DNA of 64,000 nucleotides from Amaurobius ferox (lineage: Eukaryota > Arthropoda > Arachnida > Araneae > Amaurobiidae): the NCBI GenBank assembly GCA_951213105.1, contig OX578140.1, positions 123,993,649-124,057,648 on the forward strand, in the 5' to 3' direction. Position numbers and translations under genes: made by a program. The notes under the pieces are model-generated. The model made no database searches. It worked only from the letters and a program-made list of their open reading frames with translations, and was not told the origin of the DNA. This document shows, piece after piece, positions 8,734 to 59,361 of the stretch; the first letter of the stretch is position 1; each line of letters begins with the position of its first letter.

Positions 8734-11700
8734 ACAAACATATAGAAATAACAAAAATGGAGATGACTGGCAAAACTATACAAATTTGGAGAGAGGACAA
8801 TATTATGAAAATAATGATAAAGCAAAATATGATACCAAAAGTATCCTTTCAAGCGAATGTGAGAACGTATCTAGCCCACAATTACCGATGGTAGAAATAG
8901 ATTGCAAAGGAATAAAAATAATAAGTGTAATTGATAGTGGGGCTCAAGTTAGTATCATAGATTTGGAAACATTTCAAAAACTAAAACAGAATAGAAATGT
9001 AAAAATAAAATACATAACCAGAAGAGTAATACTTCAGACGTTTACTAAAGAAAATATAAAATTTTTAAATTGCATTCAATTTTCATTTAGAATTGGGGAA
9101 AAGGCATGCAAAAATTATTTTTTCGTGACAAAACAGAACTTTCAGGGGCAATATAAAATGCTTTTAGGCTACGACTTTTTATCCTCACATAAAGCAATTT
9201 TAAATACAAAAGATAACGAAGTACAATTTGGGAATACTGCGATTAAATTGTATAAAAGTGAAAATACAAACCCAATACAGAATTCAAAACAAAAACCACA
9301 AAGCCAGGGAATTCGCGATGAAAATAGATATAATAGTAATTATGAAAATTATAATACTGATGACGACGAATATGAGGAAATAAATAGTTGTTATAATGAA
9401 TCCAATAATGAGAATGAAGATAGAATAAGCGATGATAATGATGACGACGAATATGAGGAAATAAATAATTGTTGTAATGAATTCAATAATGAGAATGAAG
9501 GTAGAATAAGCGAGGATAATGAAAGCGAGAACGATAGAAAAAACGCTAATATGCAAAATTGTAGCACTCGCGATAATGTAAATGATGAAAAATGGTTACC
9601 AAGTTCTAATGAAAGTAATAAGAATAAGAATGTTAAAAAGAAAGAGGAAAAGCAGATTTTCGCTAAATTGAAAAGAAAAATAACATTAAAGCCAGGGGAG
9701 TCAGAAATAGTCCAATTGATTTTGTCACAGGAATTAAATGAGGGACAGGATGTTTTATTTTCTCCAATAAAAATGGCAAGAACATTAATCACGGATGAAG
9801 CGATCCAAAGTATAGAAAATAAAAATAACATTAGAATGTTGTTATACAATGAAAAAAATTGCCAAATTACACTTAATAAAAATATGAACGTGGGTATAAT
9901 AACAGAACAAATCGAAATTGTTGATACAAAAAATAAAAGCAGTAAACCCACGTTGGAAATTAATAATATTCAAAATTTAAATAAAACAGATTATCAACAA
10001 ATTCGGGAATTAAGAAAGAAAGAAATATCTCCAGACGATTTTCAAGTACAGCACTTAAATAAGGAAGATAGAAATAAAGTTATTGCATTAATGATGACCA
10101 ATACAGAGGTTTTTTCAAAGTCATATGCTACCCTAGGTAAAACATCAGCAATAGTACCGAAAATCGAACTTATGCACAATTATCCTATTCAGAGTCGACC
10201 ATACCCAATTCCGAGAGCAGTACGAGAAATTGCGCAAAAAGAAATTAGGGAATTATTGGAAAATGACATTATTGAAAGTTCACAAAGCACGTACGCTAGT
10301 CCCATTATTCTTGTAAAGAAACCAAGTAAACCAAATGAAGAACCTAAATATAGACTTGCTATTGATTATAGGGCCATAAACGCGTATTTACCACTTTTGC
10401 CAATAAACTTACCAAAGGTGAAGGATATATTACAAAATATCGCTGGTAGTAAAATTTATACAGTTATGGATTTGAAGGCGGCGTTTTTTCAGATCGAACT
10501 AAGAAAACAAGATAGAAAGGCCTTAACGTTCACAACTTTTATGGGAAATTTTAATCCTAAAAGAATTCCGTTTGGTCTTAAAAACTCAGGAGCATATTTT
10601 CAACTTTTAATGAACAAAGTGTTAGGAGATCTATCAGAGTTAAAAATATACTTTTACTTAGATGACTTAGTCATATGCGCACAAAATAACGACGAAATGT
10701 TAGAGAAAATCAAAATTGTTTTCCAAAGATTGAAAGAAAATAATTTAACACTCGACCCGGCGAAGTTACAGATATGCAAATCGCAAATTGAATTTTTAGG
10801 ATATAAAGTAAATGCGAATGGTATAAGCCCATCAATAAAAAACTGTGCAAAAGTGCAAAATTTCAAACAACCCCAAACGGTTAAACAAGTAAAAAGCTTT
10901 CTTGGGACAACAAACTATTTTAGAGGTCTGATAAAAAATTATGCACAAATTGCAGAACCGTTGGTAAATTTGACAAAAAAGAATGTTAGGTTCGAGTGGA
11001 ATAATGAATGTAGAAAAGCTTTTAAAAAATTAAAAAATGCAATTTTTAAAGAACCAGTTGTAAGACAGCCTGATGAAGTAAACCCGTTTGTCTTAACTAC
11101 GGATGGCTCAGGTAAGGGAATTAGTAGTATTTTGATGCAAAGGGTAAATGGAGTCGATCATGTTATCGAATTTTATTCAAGACCTGTGAACCCGGCAGAG
11201 AAGCGTTATCCTGCAATAAAGCTAGAATTGCTAGCTATACACGCATCCTTACAACACTTCAGAGAATATCTGTTCGGAAGGAGTTTCACCTTGCTGAGTG
11301 ACGCAAAATCCCTTATGTACCACATAAAATTAGATAAAATGCCAAATATCATATCGAGGTGGCTAATTGACATAAGTCAGTATGATTTTAAATTCAAATA
11401 TCAAAAAGGTGAAAATAACGCAAGTCATTATTGCTCGAGATATGTATTTGACAATGATAACCAAATCAAATATGTAAATACTTTAATTAAAAATGATGAG
11501 ATAAATGTGGAGAAAATATTAGAGCAACAAATGGTAGATGAAAAATTAAGTAAAATTAGAGAGGAATTACAAAAAGGAAGAAACCGATATCACAATAACA
11601 AGGTATACTATATTGATAGCCAAAATAAACTGTTAATGGTAAAGAAGGAAAATAAAAGACAAACGTATAGGAAAATAAATGAGAATAAGATTGTAATACC

Positions 11701-13015
11701 GCACTCGCTAAAGGGAAAGATAATAGAGATAGCACATTTCCCTCATTTCGGAGTAAAAAAGACATACCAATTACTTTCAAGAAAATATTTTTGGATAGGG
11801 GCTTTCCAAGACGTGGAAAATTTTTGTAAGTCTTGTAATCAATGCTTATTAGTAAAACACAAAAATATACCACCAGCCAGACTTCAGGCTATGCCAGAAA
11901 TATTAAAACCAGGAATATATTTACAACTGGATTGCGTAGGAAAACTACCGCGCAGTAATGGAGGAAATAATTTTGTAATTACAATTGTAGACATGTTTTC
12001 ACGATACTTTGAGGCCTATGCAGTCAGAGACATTACTGCTAAAACAATAGTGAATAAGCTAACAAACTTCGTGACAACTTATGGAGTTCCAATTATTATT
12101 CAAACCGATAATGCTCAAATTTTTAAAAGTAAAGAATACATAGATTTTACAAATGGATTAAATATTGAAAGGCGATACAGTTCGGTTTATTTCCCAAGTT
12201 CTTTAGGTCGTTGTGAAAGAATACACAGAGACATGAAACAATGTATAATGTGTTTGTCAAAGACTACGTTTGAATGGGATGAATCTTTAAAATGGTTTAA
12301 GTTTTATGTGAATAACACTATTAACAGTAATACAGGATTTGAGCCTTCATTCCTGTTCTATCTTAGAGATTTATCATTGCCATTTGAAAATATTAAACAA
12401 ACAAACATACCAAGTAAGGAAGAAATAGATATAATGTATAGTGATGTAAATAATTATAAAAATTATGTGGCACAGCATTTAAAAAATATAGATAAAGTCG
12501 TGAAAGACGCATCGGAACAACAAAAGCTGATAAATGACAAACAAATAAAGAAATATAAAATAGTGAGAAAAAACGATATATTTATAGGAGCGACAGTGTA
12601 CCTAAAAAAGTTCCTAAAACCAAGGGTATTAGAGGATCGATATGATGGACCATTTAGAATTACGAAATTAGTCCGAAATAATAATGTTATAATATGTCTT
12701 AAAAGTGATGAAAATAAAACTTATAAAGTGCACATAAATAAACTATACATGGCAGCGGAGCGAAAACAATATTTGAAAGATAGTGACGAAAGCGAATCAA
12801 ACCACGCACACACACAGGACAAAGAAAAAAATCAAAATGAGAAAGTGATTAGAAATAATGATCAAAGTCAGATTAAGGAAGGGAAGGTCACTAAAGAAAA
12901 GCAATTAAACTGTGAAAATAATAGAAATGATGATGAGGTTTGTTATAATGCCAGAGGGTATAATTTTCGCCCTCGAATTGTTGTAAATAGTAATTTCATA
13001 AAACAAAGAATATGA
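8660..13015 (+). CDS. pol: Pol polyprotein: protease, RT, RNase H, integrase
   Basis: This frame is entered by -1 frameshift from gag; no ATG begins it. Residues are counted from the TTG at 8786. Aspartic protease has DSG at 50-52. A linker (about 190-265) is acidic and Asn-rich, with a 27-residue segment duplicated in tandem (period 81 bp at 9359-9520). Reverse transcriptase shows YRLAIDYR and the catalytic YLDD at 624-627. RNase H starts with a DGS motif at D773. Integrase has a zinc-binding part (H984, H987, C1014, C1017; the His pair is closer than usual) and the triad D1049, D1108, E1144 with 35 residues between the last two. A GPF motif (1288-1290) lies in the integrase C-terminus. All key residues are present, so the enzyme set may be active. 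The lysine- and glutamate-rich tail after about 1330 has no recognised domain. Confidence 0.93.
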   Translation, partial: FKLRAGIWDQGTNRTNSREINKFGSQTYRNNKNGDDWQNYTNLERGQYYENNDKAKYDTKSILSSECENVSSPQLPMVEIDCKGIKIISVIDSGAQVSIIDLETFQKLKQNRNVKIKYITRRVILQTFTKENIKFLNCIQFSFRIGEKACKNYFFVTKQNFQGQYKMLLGYDFLSSHKAILNTKDNEVQFGNTAIKLYKSENTNPIQNSKQKPQSQGIRDENRYNSNYENYNTDDDEYEEINSCYNESNNENEDRISDDNDDDEYEEINNCCNEFNNENEGRISEDNESENDRKNANMQNCSTRDNVNDEKWLPSSNESNKNKNVKKKEEKQIFAKLKRKITLKPGESEIVQLILSQELNEGQDVLFSPIKMARTLITDEAIQSIENKNNIRMLLYNEKNCQITLNKNMNVGIITEQIEIVDTKNKSSKPTLEINNIQNLNKTDYQQIRELRKKEISPDDFQVQHLNKEDRNKVIALMMTNTEVFSKSYATLGKTSAIVPKIELMHNYPIQSRPYPIPRAVREIAQKEIRELLENDIIESSQSTYASPIILVKKPSKPNEEPKYRLAIDYRAINAYLPLLPINLPKVKDILQNIAGSKIYTVMDLKAAFFQIELRKQDRKALTFTTFMGNFNPKRIPFGLKNSGAYFQLLMNKVLGDLSELKIYFYLDDLVICAQNNDEMLEKIKIVFQRLKENNLTLDPAKLQICKSQIEFLGYKVNANGISPSIKNCAKVQNFKQPQTVKQVKSFLGTTNYFRGLIKNYAQIAEPLVNLTKKNVRFEWNNECRKAFKKLKNAIFKEPVVRQPDEVNPFVLTTDGSGKGISSILMQRVNGVDHVIEFYSRPVNPAEKRYPAIKLELLAIHASLQHFREYLFGRSFTLLSDAKSLMYHIKLDKMPNIISRWLIDISQYDFKFKYQKGENNASHYCSRYVFDNDNQIKYVNTLIKNDEINVEKILEQQMVDEKLSKIREELQKGRNRYHNNKVYYIDSQNKLLMVKKENKRQTYRKINENKIVIPHSLKGKIIEIAHFPHFGVKKTYQLLSRKYFWIGAFQDVENFCKSCNQCLLVKHKNIPPARLQAMPEILKPGIYLQLDCVGKLPRSNGGNNFVITIVDMFSRYFEAYAVRDITAKTIVNKLTNFVTTYGVPIIIQTDNAQIFKSKEYIDFTNGLNIERRYSSVYFPSSLGRCERIHRDMKQCIMCLSKTTFEWDESLKWFKFYVNNTINSNTGFEPSFLFYLRDLSLPFENIKQTNIPSKEEIDIMYSDVNNYKNYVAQHLKNIDKVVKDASEQQKLINDKQIKKYKIVRKNDIFIGATVYLKKFLKPRVLEDRYDGPFRITKLVRNNNVIICLKSDENKTYKVHINKLYMAAERKQYLKDSDESESNHAHTQDKEKNQNEKVIRNNDQSQIKEGKVTKEKQLNCENNRNDDEVCYNARGYNFRPRIVVNSNFIKQRI

Positions 13016-33159: not shown

Positions 33160-33297
33160 TTGTATTTGTCATGTAGAAAACATCGATTTTTTAAAAGGCA
33201 GTCAAAATTCAATATCCAGGGTCAGTTCTGGCACATCCTGGGATTCATTAGACCTGGCCCTTTAGCTTAAAATGGATTTTGAACTACTACAGACATA
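33160..33297 (+). repeat. Repeat F, left part (split by the palindromic element)
   Basis: Matches 57440-57590 (CAATATCCAGGGTCAGTTCT, TTAGACCTGGCCCTTTAGCT). It continues at 45384 (CATATAGCCATGCAGG, CATGCGGGGATCGGA), as in the uninterrupted copy. This proves that 33298-45383 is an insertion. Confidence 0.75.
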
Positions 33298-33900
33298 AGT
33301 AGTTATAAAAGGGGCGTTCTGCGGCGGATCGGGGAGGTGGCTCAGTGTGGCTCAGGAGGAGAGGCCCTCTTTGGGAGGGAATTTCCCTCTTTGGAGTGGA
33401 TCCTCTTTGGGAGGATGCCTCTTTGGAGTGTCTTCCCTCTTTTGAGAGGAAGCTCCTCTCAGAGGGTCTTGAGACCCCCAGGAGGGAGGATGCCCCCCTC
33501 CCCTCTTTTGGAAGTTTGGTGAGGCGGCACAACACCGGATGCCTCTCTTGGGAGGATGCCTCTTTCCTAGTATTGCGAAAGATGTCAAGAGGGCAATTGC
33601 GAAAGTCTTTCAGAGAGGCCTGATGACTCATACGGAGTGAGTTTCACTCTTGAGAGTGAATGTCACAATCGCTGACTGACCCTTGACCTGAGGAAGAAGT
33701 TTCAAGGGATGTCGCAATCGATGACTGAGCATCACACAATCTGGAAATGACGTGTGGCAATCAGCGATTGATAACCTTAGAAGTGACCTTTGACAAGAAC
33801 ACACGTCCTCCCTCTCTGCTGGTCAGCGACAGACTGAAAGATCTTATCAGCGTGAAGTAGTTAAAGCGCCCTCTGGCGAATTTTGATGAAGTGCTGCCAT
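33298..33900 (+). repeat. Left terminal zone with CCTCTTTGGGAGG-type repeats
   Basis: The tip carries TATAAAAG (33304-33311) pointing inward. From about 33355 to 33580 there are many variants of CCTCTTTGGGAGG and its relatives in both orientations, able to form small hairpins. The left arm has an extra 10-nt tandem duplication (two TGTGGCTCAG-like units near 33340) absent from the right arm. Open frames here exist on several strands at once and follow the repeat, so I do not call a gene. Confidence 0.7.
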
Positions 33901-33951
33901 CTATCGGCATTTTTTTTTTTTTTTTTTTCCAAAAGAAATTAATGTTTCACT

Positions 33952-34024
33952 TGTCAGGAGCTGGATTCGATCTTGGGTCCAACTGATTAGAAGCCGCGCG
34001 TCTTACCGCTGTGCCAAAGCACCC
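33952..34024 (-). other. tRNA-like sequence, left arm
   Basis: Mirror of 44668-44740. Read on the minus strand it has an A-box-like TGGCACAGCGGTAAGACG, a CTTCTAA segment like the anticodon loop of tRNA-Arg(UCU), and a B-box-like GATCGAATCC. The T stem does not pair, so it is not a functional tRNA. An A tract (about 18-20) follows, as in a small SINE. Confidence 0.45.
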
Positions 34025-34414
34025 GTGCTTTATAGGCAGTTAACTTCGAAGTGTACCTTATCAGTGGAAGTTAGATTATTTTTCAAAGTTCATTCGAATA
34101 GCGATGCAAGGGTGCGTTTTAAAACAGAATGTTACGGAGTGAATATAAATATGTATATTATAACATTATGATTTTTTTTTTAAAACAAATGTATACACAA
34201 ACTTTAAAAACACGAATGTAATAATTAGCTAAAATTGTATTCAGTGGATTTTTTTTTTTTTTAAATAAATCAATACGATTTTTATAATAATAACGAAATG
34301 ATTTCGAATGTTTAAAAACAAATTGATTACGGATTTCCAATGAACACACAATTTGTGTTCAGTGGACACACAAATTGTGTTCAATGAATACGATTCGACC
34401 ATTTTAAGTGTTGT

Positions 34415-34910
34415 GTATCTAAAAACAAATGTATACACAAACTTTAAAAACACGAATGTAATAATTAGCTAAAATTGTATTCAGTGGATTTTTTTTTTTT
34501 TTTAAATAAATCTAACTATCAATATAATTTTTTTTAAAAATGATTTGAATACACCCAAGTATAGTTACGCATTTTCAAAATGGTGTTAAGTGAATAGCAT
34601 TCGACCATTCTGAGTGTTGTGTATCTAAAAACAAATGTATACACAAACTTTAAAAACATGAATGTAATACATAGCTGAAATTATGTTTTGTGAATAGGAT
34701 TCGACCCTTTCAAGTGTTGTGTATCTAAAAACAAATGTATACACAAACTTTAAAAACATGAATGTAATACATAGCTGAAATTATGTTTTGTGAACAGGAT
34801 TCGACCCTTTCAAGTGTTGTGTATCTAAAAACAAATGTATACACAAACTTTAAAAACATGAATGTAATACATAGCTGAAATTATGTTTTGTGAACAGGAT
34901 TCGACCATTC
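34415..34910 (+). repeat. 100-bp minisatellite, left arm
   Basis: Units starting TTGTGTATCTAAAAACAAAT at 34618, 34718 and 34818 are nearly identical with a period of exactly 100 bp. A more diverged unit starts at 34411 and a partial one near 34180. The right arm has the mirror image. Confidence 0.85.
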
Positions 34911-34974
34911 TAAGTGTGTGTGTGATTTTTAAAAAATAAATCTAACAGTATATAAAAATAATAATGAAAATTAG

Positions 34975-35100
34975 AACTCACGGAACGACGTCTTCACTAC
35001 CCGCTGGTCAAACTTCAAATGAGTGATACACTCTCATTACGCTATTAAAAATTAGATATTATCTATAATGACGTCAGCAGTATGAGGTGTTGCCACCTAT
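34975..35100 (-). promoter_or_regulatory. Promoter-like module A, left arm
   Basis: Contains TGACGTCA (35069-35076), TTATCTATAAT, and a GTATCACTCATTTGAAGT-type word (minus-strand sense). Closely similar to module B and loosely to module C upstream of the gene. A regulatory role is inferred from the repetition. Confidence 0.4.
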
Positions 35101-35842
35101 TTTTTCTAATAATATATTTTAATAGTTGGATACTTCAAGGGTCTGATTTGGTACACCTAATCTGAAATACATCATTTTAATGATATTACGCATTGAATAT
35201 GATTCGGCCATTTTTAAAATGGTGGATGTAATTGAAATATCGAAGTTTAGAATTTAACAAACTAACGAATTTTCACCCCCAAAAATTTTAGCATTCAGTT
35301 TAAATAAAACCCAATGAATATGATATCACCATTTTAACATCGTAATTTTACTACCATTATAGAACTTAGAAGTGAGTGTACATTATTTTTTTCAGGACAC
35401 CAACACATTTTAAAATCTATTGAATAGGAATAGGAATATTGAATAGGAATAGGAACACCAGGTATTAAAACCTGCTAAACATGAAACGAGTAAGTATTGT
35501 GTGAGATTTTATCACACTAACTTTCAAACTTTTTAAATTTTTAAAAATGTCCGAAATAGTTGTATTTCATCGGTAGACATAAATTGTATGGAACACATTT
35601 TTATGAAAAAAATATCTGTTTCGACAGCTTTTAAAAATAGATTTCTACAGTTGCACACTACGGTTCTAGAATTTTCTAAATACGAATCGACTGTTTGAAC
35701 TACCAATGGTGGTTTTACCGATGCAAATATTTACAGGACAAATATTTCAATGAAACCGAACTTACTTGAAGCTTCTAAGTTTGAATATTTAGAATCATTT
35801 CATATAATTTTTATATTCACATTGAAAATAGTTAACAAAATT

Positions 35843-35962
35843 GGAACTCACAGAGCGACAACTTACTGTCCACACTCCAAATGAGTGATACACTCTTATT
35901 ACATTATTAAAAATTAGATCTTATCTATAATGATGTCATTATGTTGCCATACTGCCACCACA
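35843..35962 (-). promoter_or_regulatory. Promoter-like module B, left arm
   Basis: Shares TTATCTATAAT, AGAGTGTATCACTCATTTGG and a one-mismatch TGATGTCA with module A. In the right arm the same module is followed at 42912 by a consensus splice donor GTAAGT in a context like that upstream of the gene (CTT.AAGTAAGTT.GGT). Confidence 0.4.
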
Positions 35963-36663
35963 CAATTATTCTTTCCAAATTATGCATTTTTTTTTCTTTT
36001 TTCTTTTTAATAACTTGCTACTGTCTTATGCTATCCATTTTTTTTTTCATATAAGCAGATATTCCATATACCTTCTAAATGTTAAGTTGTAATTTAAAAA
36101 AAAAGCATTAGAGGTGTATTTTACGTCTGAATTCGTCCAAGTGGAAATCCGACAATTGCAAATGCATGATTGCATCCTCACATTTCAATAGACACCACTA
36201 AAATGTGTGGATCTTATTTTGAAAAAGCTGCTCTCAGAAAGAATATGTATATGAATACATATTTTTCATAAATATACCCCCTCCCCCCACAATACACACA
36301 TCATGCAGGCCAAACACTCACCCAGAATACATTCCAAATCGGCTCTATAGCTTATCGCGCTTATCAGTGTAACAGATAGTGACCCAAAGTTCATGTTCGC
36401 AAAGCGAGTTAATTGCAATGTTATTGTTTTAAGCAGTTCCCATATTTAAATGAAAAATTTATCAAATTATACAATACATACAAGAGCTGGAAGATCTTAG
36501 CATATCAATATTATAGAATACTCACGAATGTTTTTTTTTTTTCCCCATTTAAAATTATCAAATTTTAATGCAATTTGACAAAAATTGCACAATACTTAGT
36601 GTATGACTATCAAATAAGAGCTAGGTTTTATTGTTACAACAACGTTTAAGATCATTAAACGAG

Positions 36664-36694
<31 letters not shown>

Positions 36695-37293
36695 AGAAGA
36701 ATAGTATATAACTTACTGTTTTTAAGGATAGGTGATTGTTAACATTGAATTTAAATGAATGAGTGACCCTCTGAGACAAGTACAGTACACTGCAATAACA
36801 TTAAAAAATATGAAAGATATGCAATTAACACCTTAAAAGAAACATGTAATGAGTTTTGATATCTTAATACGAGACATTATTGACATGCACATAGAAATGT
36901 CACAATTTTGTGGCTGTAGGCGCTCCATAAGACCCCTCTGCTCTTAATAAATGATCCCATTTGAATGTACATATTTAACAACACACAGAAAATGACAGGA
37001 CCACAACAAAATTTTACACCTATTACAGAATAACTCCCAACTTCGTAGATTTTTAAGAAACTACAGTCGAATTTTCACCGATTCTTAGAGATTGAAACAC
37101 AGCATTGTTTATGAATCTTCATACTTTAGAGAATGGAACATAAATTAGCATTTATTTTGAATGAATTCAGAATTTTGACATTGATTATAAATTTATGATT
37201 TAAACTCTGTAAAGTGTAAATATCTTTTGTCATGAAACTCACACTGTAGACATTTGATATGATTCGAATAAACCTATTTTTAATTTTTTATAT

Positions 37294-37299
37294 TTTATT
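37294..37299 (-). terminator. Polyadenylation signal, left gene
   Basis: AATAAA on the minus strand about 220 bp after the stop codon; mirror of 41380-41385. Confidence 0.5.
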
Positions 37300-37516
37300 T
37301 TAAAAAGTGAGATTAGTAAACCTGTTACACTTGAATGCATAGATACATAACTCACAACAATATAACATTTCTTAAATGGAACATGCTAAAAAAAAAAAAA
37401 AATTAGCTAATGAGTATAAATAAGGAATTCAATTTGAAAGATAAAAACCATTTAATGAATCTATTATTAATGAAATACACATTAACCATTATCACTTGTA
37501 CATTTAAACAAATAAG

Positions 37517-38632
37517 TTAAAATAATTTCCTTATCGCACTTTCATAGTCCTCTGATTTGAATGACTCGAAAAAATTTCTATCATAGCAGTAAAAGACTTC
37601 TTCACCACGCAACAAAACTTTCTTAGCAATGTTATTAATGTCAAGATTTAGAAGTACTTGTTCAGACACTCTGTCAAACATTTGTAATGGAGTGCTGTAA
37701 AGACATTCATGGTAACTTAAATCTTCAACTTGACCAACACAGCCAACACATTTGAAAAGTTTTCTTACATGACACATGACGTTGTCATGAATACAAGAGA
37801 TTAATTGTTCGAATGCAAAATTTTTGTCACAAATAAGTGATGGTAGAAAGGTTATAGTGTTCTTTATTTTTAATATTTGAGCAGGAAGCCACTCTATAAA
37901 TATACTTTCTCGAAGATGTATACTAATGTTGTTAACACTATTCTGTAAACATGCTATTTGATTTTTATCTAAGGTAATATGACACTGTGTTAGACAAAAT
38001 TTTGAATCATATAATTGAATTATTTTCTGCAGATGCAATTTTCCGTTGTCATTGAAACAGAACAACTCATTGCGACTGACGAAAGAGGTATCTGCATATA
38101 GAATATTGAACGACCACAATTTTTGAGAAAATTCACTCCATGTAGCCGGTGACAGTGTAACACCTTCACGCGTAGGCTGTAATTCATTTCGATCGTTAGA
38201 GATATATTTCCATATATACACTTTTAACTTCCCATGACGAAGTTTCAAATACACATACACATTAGAACCTAAATGCCAACGACGGAGTGCATCTTGCATA
38301 AAATCTGAAGAAGTAGATTCAGTCGAAACTGATTCTGCATTGGAAGATAACAGTCCACTATGTGTTAGAGCACAAGAAAGCAGATCATGAGTTGAGTTTT
38401 CAACCTCGGTGAGAACTTGTGAATTGACAACGGTAGATGTTTCTGCTGGGGTTTTGGAAGACATAAGATAGGTTTCTAACCAATCCACAGCAAATTTTTG
38501 TGAGGGTGAATTAATCACATCTGAAACAATGTCCACAGATTTTGTTTCTTCTAGGGCAGGAACAGTCAACTCCGCACTATTTACACTAGAAATTATTTGC
38601 TCGAGTGATGGCATACTTTGAATTTTAGACAT
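37517..38632 (-). CDS. PC4/SUB1-like ssDNA-binding domain protein, left copy
   Basis: 371-residue protein identical to the right-arm copy (40047-41162), transcribed away from the element centre. Numbering below follows the 383-codon open frame; the first ATG is its codon 13. Codons 122-186 match the PC4 (SUB1/p15) pattern: alternating hydrophobic strands with basic residues (LKLRHGKLKVYIWKY), then LQPTREGVTLSPATW, the typical Gly-x-x-Leu turn before the final helix. Codons about 204-250 may be a second, diverged PC4-like unit (KLHLQKIIQLY...ITLDKNQIACLQ). The C-terminal part has C307-x2-C310 and H320, C322, a possible zinc site. PC4 proteins bind single-stranded DNA and act in transcription or replication; a role in the element's own expression or replication is inference. 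Confidence 0.8.
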   Translation of the reverse strand: MSKIQSMPSLEQIISSVNSAELTVPALEETKSVDIVSDVINSPSQKFAVDWLETYLMSSKTPAETSTVVNSQVLTEVENSTHDLLSCALTHSGLLSSNAESVSTESTSSDFMQDALRRWHLGSNVYVYLKLRHGKLKVYIWKYISNDRNELQPTREGVTLSPATWSEFSQKLWSFNILYADTSFVSRNELFCFNDNGKLHLQKIIQLYDSKFCLTQCHITLDKNQIACLQNSVNNISIHLRESIFIEWLPAQILKIKNTITFLPSLICDKNFAFEQLISCIHDNVMCHVRKLFKCVGCVGQVEDLSYHECLYSTPLQMFDRVSEQVLLNLDINNIAKKVLLRGEEVFYCYDRNFFESFKSEDYESAIRKLF

Positions 38633-39105
38633 TCTTTTTAGATAGTAACATCCAACTACGACATTCACAGTATAAGATTTATTTTTAAAACACTAACATC
38701 TTAAAACATTATAATTCTGTCACAGCTATGAGCGAAGCAAACCTATCCACACAACGTCCAAAGTTGAAATGACTTATCAAACAACTTCATAAGTATAATC
38801 ACGTAACCTAAATAGAGTGTCGTGTGCAAACAGATCACATAAGATATGAAGTGATTAGAACTTATAATTTTTAATGAATCGTACAACATTAGATTGTGGT
38901 AAATACAATTGTTATCTACATGAGAAAATTTCTATATTATTTCATTCAGCTTCGAAATCATAGAGTGAAAATATGTACCAAACTTACTTAAAGTTCCGAA
39001 TTTTAAATCACATTAACATTATATACTTAGAAAAATTTTATATATATTTTTATAACTTTAGGTGATATGTATCACGCGGAATATACAAGAATAACTACCA
39101 AAAAC

Positions 39106-39250
39106 ACGAAAATAACTAACAGTATGAGGCCTTCACAAGTCGGCATCCAAACTAGAAATGAACGATAAACACACTAATTGCAACAATTAGATGAGAGCTT
39201 ATCAGTTCTTATCTTATCTAAGATTCCACATAAAATGACGTCATCACTCC
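39106..39250 (-). promoter_or_regulatory. Promoter-like module C, left gene
   Basis: Lies about 470-620 bp upstream of the left ATG. It carries TGACGTCA (39236-39243; a second one at 39264-39271) and TTATCTTATCTAAGAT. Mirror of 39429-39573. Likely part of a shared bidirectional promoter region between the two genes. Confidence 0.45.
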
Positions 39251-39300
39251 AAAGTTCACAAGATGACGTCATTGGTCCAAGGTTCGCAAGATAGCCATTT

Positions 39301-39378
39301 AGCCTTTTAAAATTAAGAAGTAATTAAAAATCGATAGTAATTAAAAACATTTTAATTACTTCTTAATTTTAAAAGGCT
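39301..39378. repeat. Centre of symmetry of the palindromic element
   Basis: Arms meet as ...AGTAATTAAAA (ending 39329) and TTTTAATTACT... (from 39350). The 20-nt centre ATCGATAGTAATTAAAAACA holds a second AGTAATTAAAA (39336-39346) that can also pair with TTTTAATTACT, leaving a 3-nt loop. This direct duplication at the fold is what a template switch would leave. Confidence 0.9.
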
Positions 39379-39428
39379 AAATGGCTATCTTGCGAACCTT
39401 GGACCAATGACGTCATCTTGTGAACTTT

Positions 39429-39573
39429 GGAGTGATGACGTCATTTTATGTGGAATCTTAGATAAGATAAGAACTGATAAGCTCTCATCTAATTGTTGCA
39501 ATTAGTGTGTTTATCGTTCATTTCTAGTTTGGATGCCGACTTGTGAAGGCCTCATACTGTTAGTTATTTTCGT
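39429..39573 (+). promoter_or_regulatory. Promoter-like module C, right gene
   Basis: TGACGTCA at 39436-39443 (another at 39408-39415), TTAGATAAGATAAGAAC, and GTTTATCGTTCATTTCTAGT, in the same order as modules A and B. About 470-620 bp upstream of the right ATG. Confidence 0.45.
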
Positions 39574-39691
39574 GTTTTTGGTAGTTATTCTTGTATATTC
39601 CGCGTGATACATATCACCTAAAGTTATAAAAATATATATAAAATTTTTCTAAGTATATAATGTTAATGTGATTTAAAATTCGGAACTTTAA

Positions 39692-39962
39692 GTAAGTTTG
39701 GTACATATTTTCACTCTATGATTTCGAAGCTGAATGAAATAATATAGAAATTTTCTCATGTAGATAACAATTGTATTTACCACAATCTAATGTTGTACGA
39801 TTCATTAAAAATTATAAGTTCTAATCACTTCATATCTTATGTGATCTGTTTGCACACGACACTCTATTTAGGTTACGTGATTATACTTATGAAGTTGTTT
39901 GATAAGTCATTTCAACTTTGGACGTTGTGTGGATAGGTTTGCTTCGCTCATAGCTGTGACAG
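39692..39962 (+). other. Probable 5' UTR intron, right gene
   Basis: A consensus donor GTAAGT lies at 39692-39697. Acceptors CATAG (ends 39953) and GACAG (ends 39962) follow a T/C-rich stretch. Splicing would shorten the leader before the ATG at 40047. An identical mirrored arrangement serves the left gene. Predicted from consensus only. Confidence 0.4.
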
Positions 39963-40046
39963 AATTATAATGTTTTAAGATGTTAGTGTTTTAAAAATAA
40001 ATCTTATACTGTGAATGTCGTAGTTGGATGTTACTATCTAAAAAGA

Positions 40047-41162
40047 ATGTCTAAAATTCAAAGTATGCCATCACTCGAGCAAATAATTTCTAGTGTAAAT
40101 AGTGCGGAGTTGACTGTTCCTGCCCTAGAAGAAACAAAATCTGTGGACATTGTTTCAGATGTGATTAATTCACCCTCACAAAAATTTGCTGTGGATTGGT
40201 TAGAAACCTATCTTATGTCTTCCAAAACCCCAGCAGAAACATCTACCGTTGTCAATTCACAAGTTCTCACCGAGGTTGAAAACTCAACTCATGATCTGCT
40301 TTCTTGTGCTCTAACACATAGTGGACTGTTATCTTCCAATGCAGAATCAGTTTCGACTGAATCTACTTCTTCAGATTTTATGCAAGATGCACTCCGTCGT
40401 TGGCATTTAGGTTCTAATGTGTATGTGTATTTGAAACTTCGTCATGGGAAGTTAAAAGTGTATATATGGAAATATATCTCTAACGATCGAAATGAATTAC
40501 AGCCTACGCGTGAAGGTGTTACACTGTCACCGGCTACATGGAGTGAATTTTCTCAAAAATTGTGGTCGTTCAATATTCTATATGCAGATACCTCTTTCGT
40601 CAGTCGCAATGAGTTGTTCTGTTTCAATGACAACGGAAAATTGCATCTGCAGAAAATAATTCAATTATATGATTCAAAATTTTGTCTAACACAGTGTCAT
40701 ATTACCTTAGATAAAAATCAAATAGCATGTTTACAGAATAGTGTTAACAACATTAGTATACATCTTCGAGAAAGTATATTTATAGAGTGGCTTCCTGCTC
40801 AAATATTAAAAATAAAGAACACTATAACCTTTCTACCATCACTTATTTGTGACAAAAATTTTGCATTCGAACAATTAATCTCTTGTATTCATGACAACGT
40901 CATGTGTCATGTAAGAAAACTTTTCAAATGTGTTGGCTGTGTTGGTCAAGTTGAAGATTTAAGTTACCATGAATGTCTTTACAGCACTCCATTACAAATG
41001 TTTGACAGAGTGTCTGAACAAGTACTTCTAAATCTTGACATTAATAACATTGCTAAGAAAGTTTTGTTGCGTGGTGAAGAAGTCTTTTACTGCTATGATA
41101 GAAATTTTTTCGAGTCATTCAAATCAGAGGACTATGAAAGTGCGATAAGGAAATTATTTTAA
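40047..41162 (+). CDS. PC4/SUB1-like ssDNA-binding domain protein, right copy
   Basis: Same protein as the left arm. The frame is open from after TAG 39984-39986, but the first ATG is at 40047 (MSKIQSMPSL), with A at -3, so I start there; twelve earlier in-frame codons (from a GTG at 40011) may be leader. The N-terminal 115 residues are Ser/Thr/Glu-rich and probably disordered. The PC4-like domain and Cys/His cluster follow as in the left copy. The total is longer than a plain PC4 protein (about 100-130 aa), so the C-terminal half is extra. The two reading frames are identical although the surrounding arms have drifted, which suggests selection or recent gene conversion. Function unproven; family call rests on motif pattern. 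Confidence 0.8.
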   Translation: MSKIQSMPSLEQIISSVNSAELTVPALEETKSVDIVSDVINSPSQKFAVDWLETYLMSSKTPAETSTVVNSQVLTEVENSTHDLLSCALTHSGLLSSNAESVSTESTSSDFMQDALRRWHLGSNVYVYLKLRHGKLKVYIWKYISNDRNELQPTREGVTLSPATWSEFSQKLWSFNILYADTSFVSRNELFCFNDNGKLHLQKIIQLYDSKFCLTQCHITLDKNQIACLQNSVNNISIHLRESIFIEWLPAQILKIKNTITFLPSLICDKNFAFEQLISCIHDNVMCHVRKLFKCVGCVGQVEDLSYHECLYSTPLQMFDRVSEQVLLNLDINNIAKKVLLRGEEVFYCYDRNFFESFKSEDYESAIRKLF

Positions 41163-41379
41163 CTTATTTGTTTAAATGTACAAGTGATAATGGTTAATGT
41201 GTATTTCATTAATAATAGATTCATTAAATGGTTTTTATCTTTCAAATTGAATTCCTTATTTATACTCATTAGCTAATTTTTTTTTTTTTTTAGCATGTTC
41301 CATTTAAGAAATGTTATATTGTTGTGAGTTATGTATCTATGCATTCAAGTGTAACAGGTTTACTAATCTCACTTTTTAA

Positions 41380-41385
41380 AATAAA
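41380..41385 (+). terminator. Polyadenylation signal, right gene
   Basis: AATAAA about 220 bp after the stop, in an A/T-rich context with a following T-rich stretch near 41400. Confidence 0.5.
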
Positions 41386-42716
41386 ATATAAAAAATTAAA
41401 AATAGGTTTATTCGAATCATATCAAATGTCTACAGTGTGAGTTTCATGACAAAAGATATTTACACTTTACAGAGTTTAAATCATAAATTTATAATCAATG
41501 TCAAAATTCTGAATTCATTCAAAATAAATGCTAATTTATGTTCCATTCTCTAAAGTATGAAGATTCATAAACAATGCTGTGTTTCAATCTCTAAGAATCG
41601 GTGAAAATTCGACTGTAGTTTCTTAAAAATCTACGAAGTTGGGAGTTATTCTGTAATAGGTGTAAAATTTTGTTGTGATCCTGTCATTTTCTGTGTGTTG
41701 TTAAATATGTACATTCAAATGGGATCATTTATTAAGAGCAGAGGGGTCTTATGGAGCGCCTACAGCCACAAAATTGTGACATTTCTATGTGCATGTCAAT
41801 AATGTCTCGTATTAAGATATCAAAACTCATTACATGTTTCTTTTAAGGTGTTAATTGCATATCTTTCATATTTTTTAATGTTATTGCAGTGTACTGTACT
41901 TGTCTCAGAGGGTCACTCATTCATTTAAATTCAATGTTAACAATCACCTATCCTTAAAAACAGTAAGTTATATACTATTCTTCTTTAAAAAAAAAAAATA
42001 TATATATATATATACTCGTTTAATGATCTTAAACGTTGTTGTAACAATAAAACCTAGCTCTTATTTGATAGTCATACACTAAGTATTGTGCAATTTTTGT
42101 CAAATTGCATTAAAATTTGATAATTTTAAATGGGGAAAAAAAAAAACATTCGTGAGTATTCTATAATATTGATATGCTAAGATCTTCCAGCTCTTGTATG
42201 TATTGTATAATTTGATAAATTTTTCATTTAAATATGGGAACTGCTTAAAACAATAACATTGCAATTAACTCGCTTTGCGAACATGAACTTTGGGTCACTA
42301 TCTGTTACACTGATAAGCGCGATAAGCTATAGAGCCGATTTGGAATGTATTCTGGGTGAGTGTTTGGCCTGCATGATGTGTGTATTGTGGGGGGAGGGGG
42401 TATATTTATGAAAAATATGTATTCATATACATATTCTTTCTGAGAGCAGCTTTTTCAAAATAAGATCCACACATTTTAGTGGTGTCTATTGAAATGTGAG
42501 GATGCAATCATGCATTTGCAATTGTCGGATTTCCACTTGGACGAATTCAGACGTAAAATACACCTCTAATGCTTTTTTTTTAAATTACAACTTAACATTT
42601 AGAAGGTATATGGAATATCTGCTTATATGAAAAAAAAAATGGATAGCATAAGACAGTAGCAAGTTATTAAAAAGAAAAAAGAAAAAAAAATGCATAATTT
42701 GGAAAGAATAATTGTG
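41386..42716. other. Non-coding arm interior, right arm (mirror 35963-37293)
   Basis: No gene found on either strand; an (AT)n run lies at about 41998-42013. The mirrored left-arm segment is the same. Confidence 0.55.
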
Positions 42717-42836
42717 TGGTGGCAGTATGGCAACATAATGACATCATTATAGATAAGATCTAATTTTTAATAATGTAATAAGAGTGTATCACTCATTTGG
42801 AGTGTGGACAGTAAGTTGTCGCTCTGTGAGTTCCAA
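42717..42836 (+). promoter_or_regulatory. Promoter-like module B, right arm
   Basis: Mirror of 35843-35962. Followed by a consensus splice donor GTAAGT at 42912-42917. No gene follows it up to the next module, so a gene may have been lost. Confidence 0.4.
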
Positions 42837-43591
42837 TTTTGTTAACTATTTTCAATGTGAATATAAAAATTATATGAAATGATTCTAAATATTCAAACTT
42901 AGAAGCTTCAAGTAAGTTCGGTTTCATTGAAATATTTGTCCTGTAAATATTTGCATCGGTAAAACCACCATTGGTAGTTCAAACAGTCGATTCGTATTTA
43001 GAAAATTCTAGAACCGTAGTGTGCAACTGTAGAAATCTATTTTTAAAAGCTGTCGAAACAGATATTTTTTTCATAAAAATGTGTTCCATACAATTTATGT
43101 CTACCGATGAAATACAACTATTTCGGACATTTTTAAAAATTTAAAAAGTTTGAAAGTTAGTGTGATAAAATCTCACACAATACTTACTCGTTTCATGTTT
43201 AGCAGGTTTTAATACCTGGTGTTCCTATTCCTATTCAATATTCCTATTCCTATTCAATAGATTTTAAAATGTGTTGGTGTCAAAAAATATAAAATATGAA
43301 AAAAATAATGTACACTCACTTCTAAGTTCTATAATGGTAGTAAAATTACGATGTTAAAATGGTGATATCATATTCATTGGGTTTTATTTAAACTAAATGC
43401 TAAAATTTATGGGGGTGAAAATTCGTTAGTTTGTTAAATTCTAAACTTCGATATTTCAATTACATCCACCATTTTAAAAATGGCCGAATCATATTCAATG
43501 CGTAATATCATTAAAATGATGTATTTCAGATTAGGTGTACCAAATCAGACCCTTGAAGTATCCAACTATTAAAATATATTATTAGAAAAAA

Positions 43592-43717
43592 TAGGTGGCA
43601 ACACCTCATACTGCTGACGTCATTATAGATAATATCTAATTTTTAATAGCGTAATGAGAGTGTATCACTCATTTGAAGTTTGACCAGCGGGTAGTGAAGA
43701 CGTCGTTCCGTGAGTTC
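43592..43717 (+). promoter_or_regulatory. Promoter-like module A, right arm
   Basis: TGACGTCA at 43615-43622, then TTATAGATAATATCTAATTT and GAGTGTATCACTCATTTGAA. Mirror of 34975-35100. Just before it, right-arm sequence near 43283 carries about 14 bases (ATATAAAATATG-type) not present in the left arm. Confidence 0.4.
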
Positions 43718-43781
43718 TAATTTTCATTATTATTTTTATATACTGTTAGATTTATTTTTTAAAAATCACACACACACTTAG

Positions 43782-44277
43782 AATGGTCGAATCCTGTTCA
43801 CAAAACATAATTTCAGCTATGTATTACATTCATGTTTTTAAAGTTTGTGTATACATTTGTTTTTAGATACACAACACTTGAAAGGGTCGAATCCTGTTCA
43901 CAAAACATAATTTCAGCTATGTATTACATTCATGTTTTTAAAGTTTGTGTATACATTTGTTTTTAGATACACAACACTTGAAAGGGTCGAATCCTGTTCA
44001 CAAAACATAATTTCAGCTATGTATTACATTCATGTTTTTAAAGTTTGTGTATACATTTGTTTTTAGATACACAACACTCAGAATGGTCGAATGCTATTCA
44101 CTTAACACCATTTTGAAAATGCGTAACTATACTTGGGTGTATTCAAATCATTTTTAAAAAAAATTATATTGATAGTTAGATTTATTTAAAAAAAAAAAAA
44201 AAATCCACTGAATACAATTTTAGCTAATTATTACATTCGTGTTTTTAAAGTTTGTGTATACATTTGTTTTTAGATAC
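43782..44277 (-). repeat. 100-bp minisatellite, right arm
   Basis: Mirror image of 34415-34910, with the same three near-identical units. Two open frames at 44239-44534 are products of the repeat and not genes. Confidence 0.85.
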
Positions 44278-44667
44278 ACAACACTTAAAATGGTCGAATC
44301 GTATTCATTGAACACAATTTGTGTGTCCACTGAACACAAATTGTGTGTTCATTGGAAATCCGTAATCAATTTGTTTTTAAACATTCGAAATCATTTCGTT
44401 ATTATTATAAAAATCGTATTGATTTATTTAAAAAAAAAAAAAATCCACTGAATACAATTTTAGCTAATTATTACATTCGTGTTTTTAAAGTTTGTGTATA
44501 CATTTGTTTTAAAAAAAAAATCATAATGTTATAATATACATATTTATATTCACTCCGTAACATTCTGTTTTAAAACGCACCCTTGCATCGCTATTCGAAT
44601 GAACTTTGAAAAATAATCTAACTTCCACTGATAAGGTACACTTCGAAGTTAACTGCCTATAAAGCAC

Positions 44668-44740
44668 GGGTGCTTTGGCACAGCGGTAAGACGCGCGGCT
44701 TCTAATCAGTTGGACCCAAGATCGAATCCAGCTCCTGACA
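44668..44740 (+). other. tRNA-like sequence, right arm
   Basis: A-box-like TGGCACAGCGGTAAGACG and B-box-like GATCGAATCC, with CTTCTAA between, as in tRNA-Arg(UCU). It is followed by a 19-nt A tract at 44764-44782. The cloverleaf does not close. It could be a small SINE captured before the arm was duplicated. Confidence 0.45.
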
Positions 44741-44782
44741 AGTGAAACATTAATTTCTTTTGGAAAAAAAAAAAAAAAAAAT

Positions 44783-45383
44783 GCCGATAGATGGCAGCAC
44801 TTCATCAAAATTCGCCAGAGGGCGCTTTAACTACTTCACGCTGATAAGATCTTTCAGTCTGTCGCTGACCAGCAGAGAGGGAGGACGTGTGTTCTTGTCA
44901 AAGGTCACTTCTAAGGTTATCAATCGCTGATTGCCACACGTCATTTCCAGATTGTGTGATGCTCAGTCATCGATTGCGACATCCCTTGAAACTTCTTCCT
45001 CAGGTCAAGGGTCAGTCAGCGATTGTGACATTCACTCTCAAGAGTGAAACTCACTCCGTATGAGTCATCAGGCCTCTCTGAAAGACTTTCGCAATTGCCC
45101 TCTTGACATCTTTCGCAATACTAGGAAAGAGGCATCCTCCCAAGAGAGGCATCCGGTGTTGTGCCGCCTCACCAAACTTCCAAAAGAGGGGAGGGGGGCA
45201 TCCTCCCTCCTGGGGGTCTCAAGACCCTCTGAGAGGAGCTTCCTCTCAAAAGAGGGAAGACACTCCAAAGAGGCATCCTCCCAAAGAGGATCCACTCCAA
45301 AGAGGGAAATTCCCTCCCAAAGAGGGCCTCTCCTCCTGAGCCACCTCCCCGATCCGCCGCAGAACGCCCCTTTTATAACTACT
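44783..45383 (-). repeat. Right terminal zone
   Basis: Mirror of the left terminal zone, ending CCCCTTTTATAACTACT. The inward-facing TATAAAAG lies at 45370-45377 (minus strand). Lacks the 10-nt duplication seen on the left. Confidence 0.7.
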
Positions 45384-45790
45384 GACATATAGCCATGCAG
45401 GGGGTGACCCTTCTCATGCGGGGATCGGACTCGATACCATGGAACGGCCGACAAGCTTCAACTCCATTGGGGTGGGCTTTTGGAGCATCTGGCGAATGAG
45501 GGCGTATCTCCAGGATGAGAATTGTGAATCTGAACTCTGAAATTACTGAAATTGCTCCATTGCAGAAGGGGATGAGATATTTAATAATTTGAAGTTTTAT
45601 GCTGGCAAAGGCGGAAAAGTGAGAATGAGAGTTATTAGTCAAGCGCCAACGCGGTTTTCGAAACTTTTACGATCTAAGGAAACTTCGGTGTCCAATCGTC
45701 GTTTTCTTGCATTACTTGACTGACCTAGCCAAGGTTTAGGGATTCATATCCATTAGTAGAACCCATATTCAGTACTATAATTAGGAGTTC
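45384..45790 (+). repeat. Repeat F, right part
   Basis: Continues from 33297. The CATGCAGGGGGTGACCCTTC section parallels CATGCAGAGGGTCAACCTTC at 57595-57615, and the GTCCAATCGTCGTTTTCTTG region also matches. 45791-45956 then contains only a short perfect palindrome, GTGCCACCTAGTGGCAC near 45883-45899. Confidence 0.65.
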
Positions 45791-57420: not shown

Positions 57421-57744
57421 TGCCAGTTTTAAAAATGTTTTTGTATTTTATATTGTGTTTGTCGTGTTGAAAAGATCTATTTTTTAAAGGGCAATTAAAA
57501 TGCGATATCCAGGGTCAGTTCTGGAATATCCTGAGATTAATTAGACCAGTGTCTTTAGTTTAGAATGGATTATGACCCACTGCAAACACCCAACCATGCA
57601 GAGGGTCAACCTTCTCGTGCGGGAATCGGATTCGACTTCAGCAGAATGCCCAATGCAGACTTTTGCGATCTAGGAAACTTCAGTGTCCAATCACCGGTCT
57701 CTTGCATTCAGTGGCTGTCTTAGCCACCTAAGTTTACGGAGCTA
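57421..57744 (+). repeat. Repeat F, uninterrupted copy
   Basis: Runs across the site that holds the palindromic element in the other copy: GGATTATGACCCACTGCAAA then CACCCAACCATGCAGAGGG. This gives the empty-site sequence. Its right side is cut by the Tc1-like element at 57745. Confidence 0.75.
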
Positions 57745-59361
57745 CAACTCCGAGTCAAAATATTAGAATAAGGCATTTCATTTGTAATGTGAAATGCATT
57801 TAGCTTCATTTCAGCGTAGTAAATTTGAAAAAGAACAACTTTTGATGATTTAATAAATTTACAAGTTATTAAAGTAAATTAAAACTTTAAAAGATTTAAT
57901 TTCGAGTAAATATTGTAGTTTTTAACAATGGTTTTTATTGTTCAAAATATTAAAATACTAAAATAGGTGGTTCAAATAATCAGAATACTTCTGAATTTTC
58001 CGGAATGGTTCCCAAAGTTGCATACATTAAGCATAAAATTAGCTTCTGTTCTTTCATGTTTTTTTTGTTCATTTTGTGTAAAACATGGGTCGTTCGTCTG
58101 ACATAACGGCGTTTACAAAGAATCGTATTATTGATTTGCATAAACAAGGCCGTAATCAGCAATATATCACCAGTTACTTAAAATGTTCTCAATCAAATGT
58201 TAGTTGAGCAATAAAGCAGTATTTTAAAGATGGATATTTTGAAAACAATCGTCTGAATAGTGATCGAAAGCCACAAACTACTCCGAGAGATAATAGAAAG
58301 CTAAAGAATATTGCTAAGAAAAATCGTTTTAGAAGTGTAAGGTATTTGCATCGGAAGTGGAAAGAACACGACGTTGATGTGTATAAATCCACAACACTAA
58401 GGCGTCTGCATAAACTTGGATTTCATTCTCGTGTACCAAAGGTAAAACCTCTCATGACTAGTAAACAGAAAAGGGACAGAGTGAAGTGGTGCAAAAAAAA
58501 CTTTTATGGAGGTGTGGATGATTGGAAAAAGGTATTTTTCAGTGATGAGTGTATGTTCTGTGTATCATATGGTGATCAAGGTGTTTGTGTAAGGCGAATG
58601 AAGCAAGAAGCATATTACAAGGAATGCATGAAGCGGTCAGTGAAATCAGCAGCCAGCTGGAAGGCTATGTGTCACTTACGAAAGGATTAACTCTCAGATA
58701 TATCAAGAAATCCTTAATTTATTTCATGATACCATCGTCGGAAGATTTGTGTGATGACGATTGTTTCTCAACATGATTTAGCATCTTGCAACAGGTCATT
58801 TTCCATTATGAACTGGCTTACACAACACCAAATTAACGTACTTCCCTGGGTGGCTAATTCGCCGGATTTAAATCCATTCGAGAATTTGTGGGGAATAATG
58901 AAGAAAATACGTCAAGAAATTGCGCCATAAAACAAAGTTGATCTTATTTCCAGCATAACATTGATATGGTCATGTCTGGGCAGAAAATATTGTGAGCCAC
59001 TTTAACTAACTTGCCAAATAGAGTTGATGCTGTTATAAAATATAAAGGTGATGCTACGAAATATTAAAAAATCACTGTTTTTGATTTTAAAAAAAAAAAT
59101 AGCGTGATTTACAAAGCATTATTCTAATATTTTGAACAGGGTAAATGTTATTCTACTATTTTGATTTTGTTCCAAGTGTGAATAATCATTTTCATTTTTG
59201 TATTATTTCCGTTAATTTTTATGCTAAAATATTCAACAAATTGTGTAAATTCTTACATTATGAAATTTTCTCGTGTTTTACTTTTTGTATAAGCGATACA
59301 TAAAAAGCCATTTTTTAAAATTCATTGTTTACGATTATTCTAATTTTTTGACTCGGAATTG
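57745..59361 (+). mobile_element. Tc1-like transposon, both ends present, dead
   Basis: Ends CAACTCCGAGTCAAAA and TTTTTTGACTCGGAATTG are inverted repeats (about 28 bp, with TTAGAATAA/TTATTCTAA), flanked by TA (57743-57744 and 59362-59363). The 1617-bp length fits a Tc1 family element. The single transposase gene inside is broken. Confidence 0.9.
58085..58990 (+). pseudogene. Tc1-like transposase (DD34E type), degenerate
   Basis: Starts MGRSSDITAFTKNRIIDLHK, the N-terminal helix-turn-helix of Tc1 transposases. Codon 41 is TGA where neighbours suggest Trp. The frame continues through TTLRRLHKLGFHSRVPKVKP and WKKVFFSDECMF, holding the first catalytic Asp. After 58640 a deletion and frameshift destroy the VMVWG region. 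The second Asp region is decayed (QHDLASCN in place of a QDNAPCH-type motif), while LPWVANSPDLNPFENLWGIM with the catalytic Glu is still readable. At least one nonsense codon and two frame changes make it inactive. Confidence 0.9.

Follow-up and report, generated by a model that had tools for sequence, protein, structure and literature searches.

The genome of the spider Amaurobius ferox contains a mobile element that is, over its entire length, one single palindrome. The element lies on contig OX578140.1 within a 64,000-nt stretch of DNA (positions 123,993,649 to 124,057,648 of the forward strand; hereafter “the window”, meaning that whole stretch), where it occupies 12,086 bp at 33298–45383. 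When one arm is aligned with the mirrored other using MAFFT, 6,018 of 6,059 columns are identical. The 41 non-identical columns include the central loop, five substitutions away from the centre, indels in homopolymers, and two long indels (10 nt at 33337–33346 and 14 nt at 43283–43296). The alignment confirms the 12-kb palindrome, with 6.03-kb arms and a 20-nt centre, that was described in an initial annotation of the window. Each arm has one long open frame, of 371 codons, for a PC4-like protein; no DNA polymerase B (PolB), rve integrase, or double-jelly-roll capsid gene was found in the element. The features are as follows (types A and B are described below):

33292..33297, no strand: target-site duplication (TSD) GACATA, left copy (flank sequence)
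33298..33314, + strand: left tip, AGTAGTTATAAAAGGGG (sequence; 418 exact copies in the genome)
33298..39329, + strand: left palindrome arm, 6.03 kb (arm alignment)
33298..35420, + strand: outer ~2.1 kb of the arm, with homology to type A and type B terminal inverted repeats (BLASTN)
34372..34917, + strand: ~100-bp tandem repeats within the terminal repeat
37517..38632 including stop (ATG frame 37520–38632), − strand: PC4-like gene, left-arm copy, P0001, 371 aa
39330..39349, no strand: palindrome centre, an asymmetric 20-nt loop
39350..45383, − strand: right palindrome arm (arm alignment)
40047..41162 including stop (ATG frame 40047–41159), + strand: PC4-like gene, mirror copy, 371 aa
43774..44320, − strand: tandem repeats, mirror copy
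45367..45383, − strand: right tip, AGTAGTTATAAAAGGGG read inward
45384..45389, no strand: TSD GACATA, right copy (flank sequence)
57446..57635, + strand: flanking host repeat, diverged copy without insertion, 79%

The initial annotation had also reported a GACATA duplication outside the element, identical tips reading inward at both ends, and tandem repeats near the tips, and all three are present. The tip pattern read backwards has no match in the whole genome. The annotation further placed an empty copy of the surrounding repeat at 57421–57744; the joined flanks of the element do align, across the insertion point, to a copy without the insertion, but this copy is diverged (79%) and the match covers only 57446–57635. 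The homology of the outer arm is from BLASTN of the arm against L013/L014, L018/L019, and L023/L024.

A family of palindromic elements

The exact 17-nt tip occurs 418 times in the 3.56-Gb genome (199 forward and 219 reverse). Among 100 listed tips of the 418, there are 39 pairs in “+ then −” order, 7–26 kb apart. Ten of these tip-to-tip elements were read over most of their length, one more was read later, and the rest were sampled, mostly at the midpoint; BLAST rows were kept above 150 bp for the comparison of elements and above 60 bp for the midpoint samples. The 39 elements comprise 24 that resemble the window element (type C), 10 of type B, four of type A, and one palindrome of the end of type B, a tally that is no unbiased census because exact tips favour C. 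The palindrome centre was observed in 14 of the 24 C elements, i.e., E1, E2, E5, E7, E10, a 24.5-kb element at C4:142573562, and the elements of L029, L031, L033, L034, L037, L039, L044, and L054. Most C copies read have one common centre, with several minor loop variants. In E10, partly deleted pieces of the palindrome are arrayed head to tail over 25.6 kb.

The gene for the C protein gives a second view of the family. Of 4,419 first-look candidates, 110 copies were scored, and all 110 are full length, free of stops, and 99–100% identical to the query. Sixty of them form 30 “−/+” pairs at 30 separate places, and the spacing is 2,519–2,528 bp in 22 of the 30. Chance or mis-assembly is an unlikely source of so many pairs with such a uniform spacing. 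The 12 best-hit loci represent 10 elements, the window’s among them, and 10 of the 12 (eight elements) are self-inverse over at least 1.5 kb, some with a mirror copy outside the scored list. All six C elements checked for TSDs have their own. More broadly, a 6-bp TSD is found in 10 of 11 elements (the window element, E1–E7, E10, and L080); E9 shows TATATATA, which is ambiguous.

These observations contradict the proposal in the initial annotation of a lone defective genome: 418 tips, 30 places with gene pairs, a common centre, and open C genes are at odds with it. They also exclude a palindrome confined to this one contig, since C palindromes stand at many loci. A single-arm form was considered as the ancestor of C and rejected on E4, the sole such case in which the centre was read through: most of one inner arm is gone, but the centre and ~30 nt of the lost arm remain. 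As a side observation, the C element at L016 (C1:159116577–159124381) contains a 1,194-codon frame that we take to be LINE-like.

Two partner types with complementary genes

Type A elements, such as E3 (C1:125418385) and E9 (C2:716270), measure 12.5–13.1 kb in four copies. They encode an integrase (Pfam rve, PF00665, E 1.4e-11; Chromo, E 1.7e-8), a capsid protein of 446 codons, a PC4-like protein, and a 271-codon frame that we take to be penton-like from its position and the usual Polinton layout. An adenovirus-type protease (E 0.046) and an A32-type ATPase (E 0.0033) are matched weakly, below the Pfam cut-off. Homologues of the capsid are named F54H12.2-like; the closest named relatives are in two spiders, Stegodyphus mimosarum (74%) and Araneus ventricosus (70%). 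A predicted structure of the closest homologue (P0004, 79% identical; pLDDT 77) resembles the capsids of iridovirus, Paramecium bursaria Chlorella virus 1 (PBCV-1), Sputnik, and mavirus (Foldseek E 7e-15 to 6e-12; template-modelling score ~0.5–0.6). From these homologues and this model, the A capsid is predicted to be double-jelly-roll-like. Pfam gave no match for the capsid or the penton-like protein, a sequence search of the PDB and a viral contig set gave none for the capsid, and PHROGs gave none for the ATPase- or protease-like proteins. Two A copies off the exact-tip list are bounded at 12,471 and 13,083 bp by variant tips, with TSDs CATGTC and GTCCAT, respectively. In 10 further A copies, homology to the terminal repeat was found in nine of 10 left and nine of 10 right windows. 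Over much of C19:13.76–13.92 Mb, capsid copies recur every 14.1–15.6 kb with integrase and PC4-like genes alongside, which suggests an array of head-to-tail A copies.

Type B elements, such as E6 (13.6 kb) and E8, carry a DNA polymerase B, identified by a PHROG DNA polymerase match (E 5.9e-15) and by the catalytic motifs DANNLY, KDFFKLMNNAVYG, and TDTDS. In the same frame, C2H2 fingers precede the polymerase part, with an endonuclease VII match there too. Pfam detected no OTU domain in this frame, and Pfam PolB, the PDB, and phage records gave no match for the polymerase. B elements also encode a fusion of a 2OG-Fe(II)-oxygenase (PF13532, E 2.2e-21) with PC4 (E 7.1e-7, above the cut-off). Four further B copies were followed outward, and the end on the oxygenase-gene side was found in all four: two with tip and repeat, one with the repeat only, and one with an edge tip match only. 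At C20:61532217–61548497, a PolB copy is adjoined by three oxygenase-PC4 copies that share one orientation and are spaced 7.39 kb apart.

The genes of the two types are divided among the copies scored, which are the best candidates only: 51 of 8,602 for PolB, 97 of 2,718 for the capsid, and about 114–116 of 11,849 for the integrase. A capsid row lies within 5 kb of 88 of 116 integrase rows, and an integrase row lies within that distance of 86 of 97 capsid rows. None of the 51 PolB rows has an integrase or capsid row within 12 kb; 35 have the oxygenase-PC4 gene within 8 kb. For the A-type PC4 gene, taking the best 81 of 125 rows, a capsid row lies within 6 kb in 69 cases and a PolB row within 12 kb in none. 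PolB was not found in A, and neither integrase nor capsid was found at the B loci examined. The nine frames of E3 leave no space between its repeats for the 3.9-kb PolB frame. The initial annotation had called for a search for a complete element with polymerase B and integrase sharing the tip. No such element was found among the 39 tip pairs or the scored rows; these genes are split between two types. The copies are mostly open: 92 of 97 capsid copies have no stops, and many are 97–100% identical; the PolB query stretch is free of stops in 49 of 51 copies, the 1,293-codon frame is open in 42 of 51, and many copies are 99–100% identical.

In a tblastn comparison of the proteins with 15 subject sequences (six pieces from C, four from A, and three from B elements, plus L080 and the element in the window), PolB matches B loci only, and all A proteins but the PC4-like one match A loci only. 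The PC4-family protein alone is common to A, B, and C, at 24–30% identity (E 4e-16 to 6e-28). A, B, and C each have a PC4-family gene of their own, located inside the terminal repeat, 3–5.3 kb from the tip and pointing to it. The C protein scores below the Pfam PC4 cut-off (18.2 against 25 bits), as does that of A (20.5 bits); its best match in the PDB is PC4 (E 6e-4). In a large protein set it has only two relatives (55% and 50% identity), on ~2-kb contigs, and a viral contig set gave no match for it. Relative to the window copy, pN/pS of the C gene (the ratio of nonsynonymous to synonymous differences, in mutually dependent comparisons) is 0.27 in E1 (Fisher p 5e-4), 0.39 in E4 (p 0.005), 0.49 in E7, 0.40 in E2, and 0.80 in E10, a pattern that, as judged from sequence, shows constraint. 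PC4 proteins bind single-stranded DNA, and strand-displacement replication exposes long single strands, which makes a role in coating such DNA or handling ends plausible; a single-strand-DNA-binding role for these PC4-like proteins is what we infer. That every segment has a paralogue of its own hints at tasks specific to each segment. Separately, A-type PC4 genes that are diverged (69–71% identity) and contain stops are clustered in the same pattern at C2:26.20–26.22 Mb and on contig C275 at 226–250 kb; one of these is perhaps an unplaced haplotype copy.

Taken together, the loci fetched and rows scored for A, B, and C show complementary genes and related termini. The three types jointly hold the full Polinton gene set, with the protease and ATPase represented by weak Pfam scores only.

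Origin and inheritance of the palindrome

In most of the C elements compared, the two arms resemble each other more than they resemble arms of other elements. Over 3.7 kb of inner arm in five elements, the two arms of an element differ by 0.03% (window), 0.13% (E1), 0.78% (E2), 0.03% (E7), and 0.35% (E10), and arms of different elements differ by 0.5–4.0%. The arms are mutually nearest in four of the five; of 212 variable columns, 168 show the two arms in agreement in every one of the five elements. A FastTree phylogeny groups both arms of every element, with support of 0.74–1.0 (0.964 for E2 and 0.74 for E10). This agreement, together with the common centre, suggests that the palindrome is inherited as such and that its arms are re-made from each other.

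Other, rarer palindromes indicate where such a structure could come from. The C arm is laid out like the left end of A or B, since its PC4 gene lies inside the terminal repeat and points to the tip. L080 (C5:125441107–125450886; BLAST rows above 250 bp) is a 9.78-kb palindrome of the B left end, with arms 99.8% alike, a 519-codon frame per arm, and the TSD ACCGTA. L111 (C11:75.23 Mb) is also a palindrome of the B left end (99.2%, 52-nt loop, 2.9 kb read around the centre); its centre lies further in, within the finger part of PolB. In L102 (C16:123.33 Mb) it is the right end of A that is mirrored (98.2%), and the centre falls inside the capsid gene. L101 (C5:42643000–42652999) looks like an A copy in which an inverted right end has taken the place of the left end, and is perhaps an asymmetric copy-back product; for L101 and L102, rows above 300 bp were kept and only A references were used. 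At strict 20-bp pairing, the loops of seven palindromes measure 10–95 nt. Since palindromes with other centres exist in L080, L111, and L102, the ends of A and B do get mirrored. The suggestion in the initial annotation that one end was copied as an inverted dimer is supported by these three palindromes and by the layout of the C arm.

We consider it probable that we are dealing with a multipartite Polinton of which the window element forms segment C, and that C arose by snap-back of one end and propagates as a palindrome. In such a system, A would supply the integrase, the capsid, and the protease- and ATPase-like proteins, B the DNA polymerase B, and C the PC4-like protein. Because their terminal repeats are related and they have 6-bp TSDs, one set of proteins acting in trans probably both replicates and integrates all three segments. 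A strand copied from an A- or B-like end would fold back on itself and prime synthesis back to the terminus, yielding a one-tipped hairpin; replication around its turn would then produce the complete palindrome, which has tips at both ends and which the integrase would insert like any other element. Probably the palindrome is propagated through this hairpin. Copying of the hairpin in each cycle would re-make the arms from one another, such that the two copies of the C gene could not drift apart during replication. With confidence a little above even, we propose that this is the first multipartite Polinton, in which the polymerase, the capsid and integrase, and a third, palindromic segment integrate separately, each with a PC4-family gene by its end, and in which C is a 6-kb hairpin re-templated from one arm in each cycle.

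Several observations weigh against these proposals. The terminal repeats of A, B, and C, although homologous, are diverged (~70–94% in aligned stretches), and both tips were recognised in only two of the 10 further A copies, the others being variant or unrecognised; since the termini differ in this way, recognition in trans is something we infer. In the four further B copies, the PolB-side end was found in none within 250 bp of its predicted place. One of the 51 PolB rows does have a capsid row within 20 kb, 19 kb away (C2:24.64 Mb), which fits a neighbouring B and A, provided that their ends are placed as in E6 and E3. As the scoring was confined to the best candidates, a complete Polinton, diverged in sequence, may exist elsewhere. 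For nine of the 24 C elements only sequence off the centre was sampled, and one of the nine (L053) matches C over only ~310 bp. L070 keeps only the centre, having lost most of one arm, and L073 is a rearranged C locus. The arms of E2 are 0.78% apart, further than its left arm is from the left arm of E10 (0.54%), and in 44 of the 212 variable columns the arms disagree in at least one element. The tips of L102 were unrecognised in the part read, and its right end lies outside that part. Finally, the PC4 label of the C protein depends on weak sequence scores and homology to the B protein, the low-confidence predicted structure (pLDDT 34) being no help. The test for constraint on its gene gave p 0.10 in E7, and E2 and E10 have too few changes for a Fisher p.

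A different account of the division of genes is that A, B, and C are non-autonomous deletion families of a complete Polinton elsewhere that supplies all functions, C being just the palindromic one. Deletion derivatives are common in mobile elements, and the scoring of best candidates only leaves room for such a helper. Derivatives served by a complete helper, however, need not keep their genes open, whereas the gene sets of A and B are complementary, non-overlapping, and mostly open in near-identical copies, and no element combining PolB with integrase was seen in the 39 tip pairs or the scored rows; we regard this account as unlikely. On the likeness of the arms, the main rival to hairpin replication is gene conversion after integration, a process described for palindromes of the Y chromosome, which would likewise give arms closer within than between elements. 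Genes that are nearly identical from locus to locus suggest, however, that the elements spread recently and that the arms probably had little time to diverge; moreover, the two terminal repeats of E3, which are separated by more than 9 kb and form no palindrome, reach 99.7% identity over 1.56 kb as well. Neither point is decisive, and we think conversion rather unlikely as the explanation.

Alternatively, every C palindrome might have formed anew from a non-palindromic C parent, as the existence of palindromes with other centres would allow. Those palindromes, however, differ in their centres, whereas most C copies read have one; E4 and L070 retain the centre even after losing arm sequence; and no non-palindromic parent appeared among the elements read through (nine C elements having been sampled off centre). 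Repeated formation is thus improbable. It is more improbable still, to the point of being negligible, that an arm was duplicated in assembly by a fold-back chimera, even though such chimeras occur in long-read data: the palindrome ends at the tips and TSD, its arms differ by the 10-nt and 14-nt indels, and palindromes occur at many loci, with separate TSDs in each C element checked.

Relation to known elements

Foldback transposons, like the present element, have very long terminal inverted repeats; we know of none with a Polinton gene set or tips. Adenoviruses, which use protein-primed replication, give rise to snap-back or palindromic defective genomes in which one end is copied as an inverted dimer, and to our knowledge these neither integrate nor form a stable family. 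Adeno-associated virus (AAV) is a parvovirus with hairpin ends. AAV snap-back subgenomes are fold-back copies of one end with regulatory or capsid sequence, possibly acting as satellites or regulators (PMC8235507). These occur as subgenomic particles (PMC8235507), whereas C is an integrated, inherited, multi-copy family.

The kinship with Polintons suggested in the initial annotation has been borne out, by the 6-bp TSDs and by related tips and terminal repeats on elements with PolB and on elements with a chromodomain integrase and capsid. A 6-bp TSD is a hallmark of Polintons, which are thought to stand close to the origin of several groups of eukaryotic DNA viruses. A and B share with Polinton/Maverick elements, including adintoviruses, the 6-bp TSD, terminal inverted repeats, PolB, a chromodomain rve integrase, a double-jelly-roll-like capsid, and protease- and ATPase-like genes. 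Polintons, as described in PMC4028283, are single 15–20 kb elements encoding PolB, integrase, ATPase, and protease, whereas here there are separate elements of ~12–14 kb and a one-gene, full-length palindrome. None of the elements measured reaches that length (12.1 kb in the window, 12.5–13.1 kb for A, and 13.6 kb for E6). By their predicted gene content, single elements fall outside the Polintons and the three together fall within them, weakly so for protease and ATPase. The definition of adintoviruses includes an rve integrase with a C-terminal chromodomain (PMC11071296, which also covers segmented viruses of the bidna class); such an integrase is present on A and absent from the window element. 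A further adintovirus trait is an OTU-like domain at the N terminus of PolB, for which Pfam gave no hit in the B frame.

A parallel for division into segments is Vesanto virus of Drosophila, a bidnavirus-like virus with PolB and up to twelve segments, many with similar terminal inverted repeats (PMC8363768). The likeness lies in PolB, related termini, and the proposed make-up of multiple segments. Vesanto virus differs in having single-stranded DNA in segments of 3.3–5.8 kb (PMC8363768), whereas the present elements have a chromodomain integrase and a double-jelly-roll-like capsid. The accessible part of that paper makes no mention of an integrase or a palindromic segment, and split Polinton genomes are not mentioned in the available parts of PMC12220804 and PMC11071308. 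Nor was a description of a split or palindromic Polinton found in the literature searched (titles and abstract openings, with partial coverage and few subscription papers).

If the split is real, it would show a route from a linear genome to a multipartite one, with snap-back of an end as a ready maker of segments; C would then count as a successful and heritable part of an apparently multipartite Polinton. If the arms are identical at birth, a heritable palindrome would provide a clock for each insertion and a testable trace of hairpin replication.

Two other features of the window lie outside the palindrome. At 7509–13015, gag- and pol-like open frames of considerable length (386 and 1,451 codons) presumably belong to a Gypsy-like retrotransposon, judging by the sequence as read, and a 160-codon frame at 58208–58690 is one that we take to be a fragment of a mariner/Tc1-type transposase.

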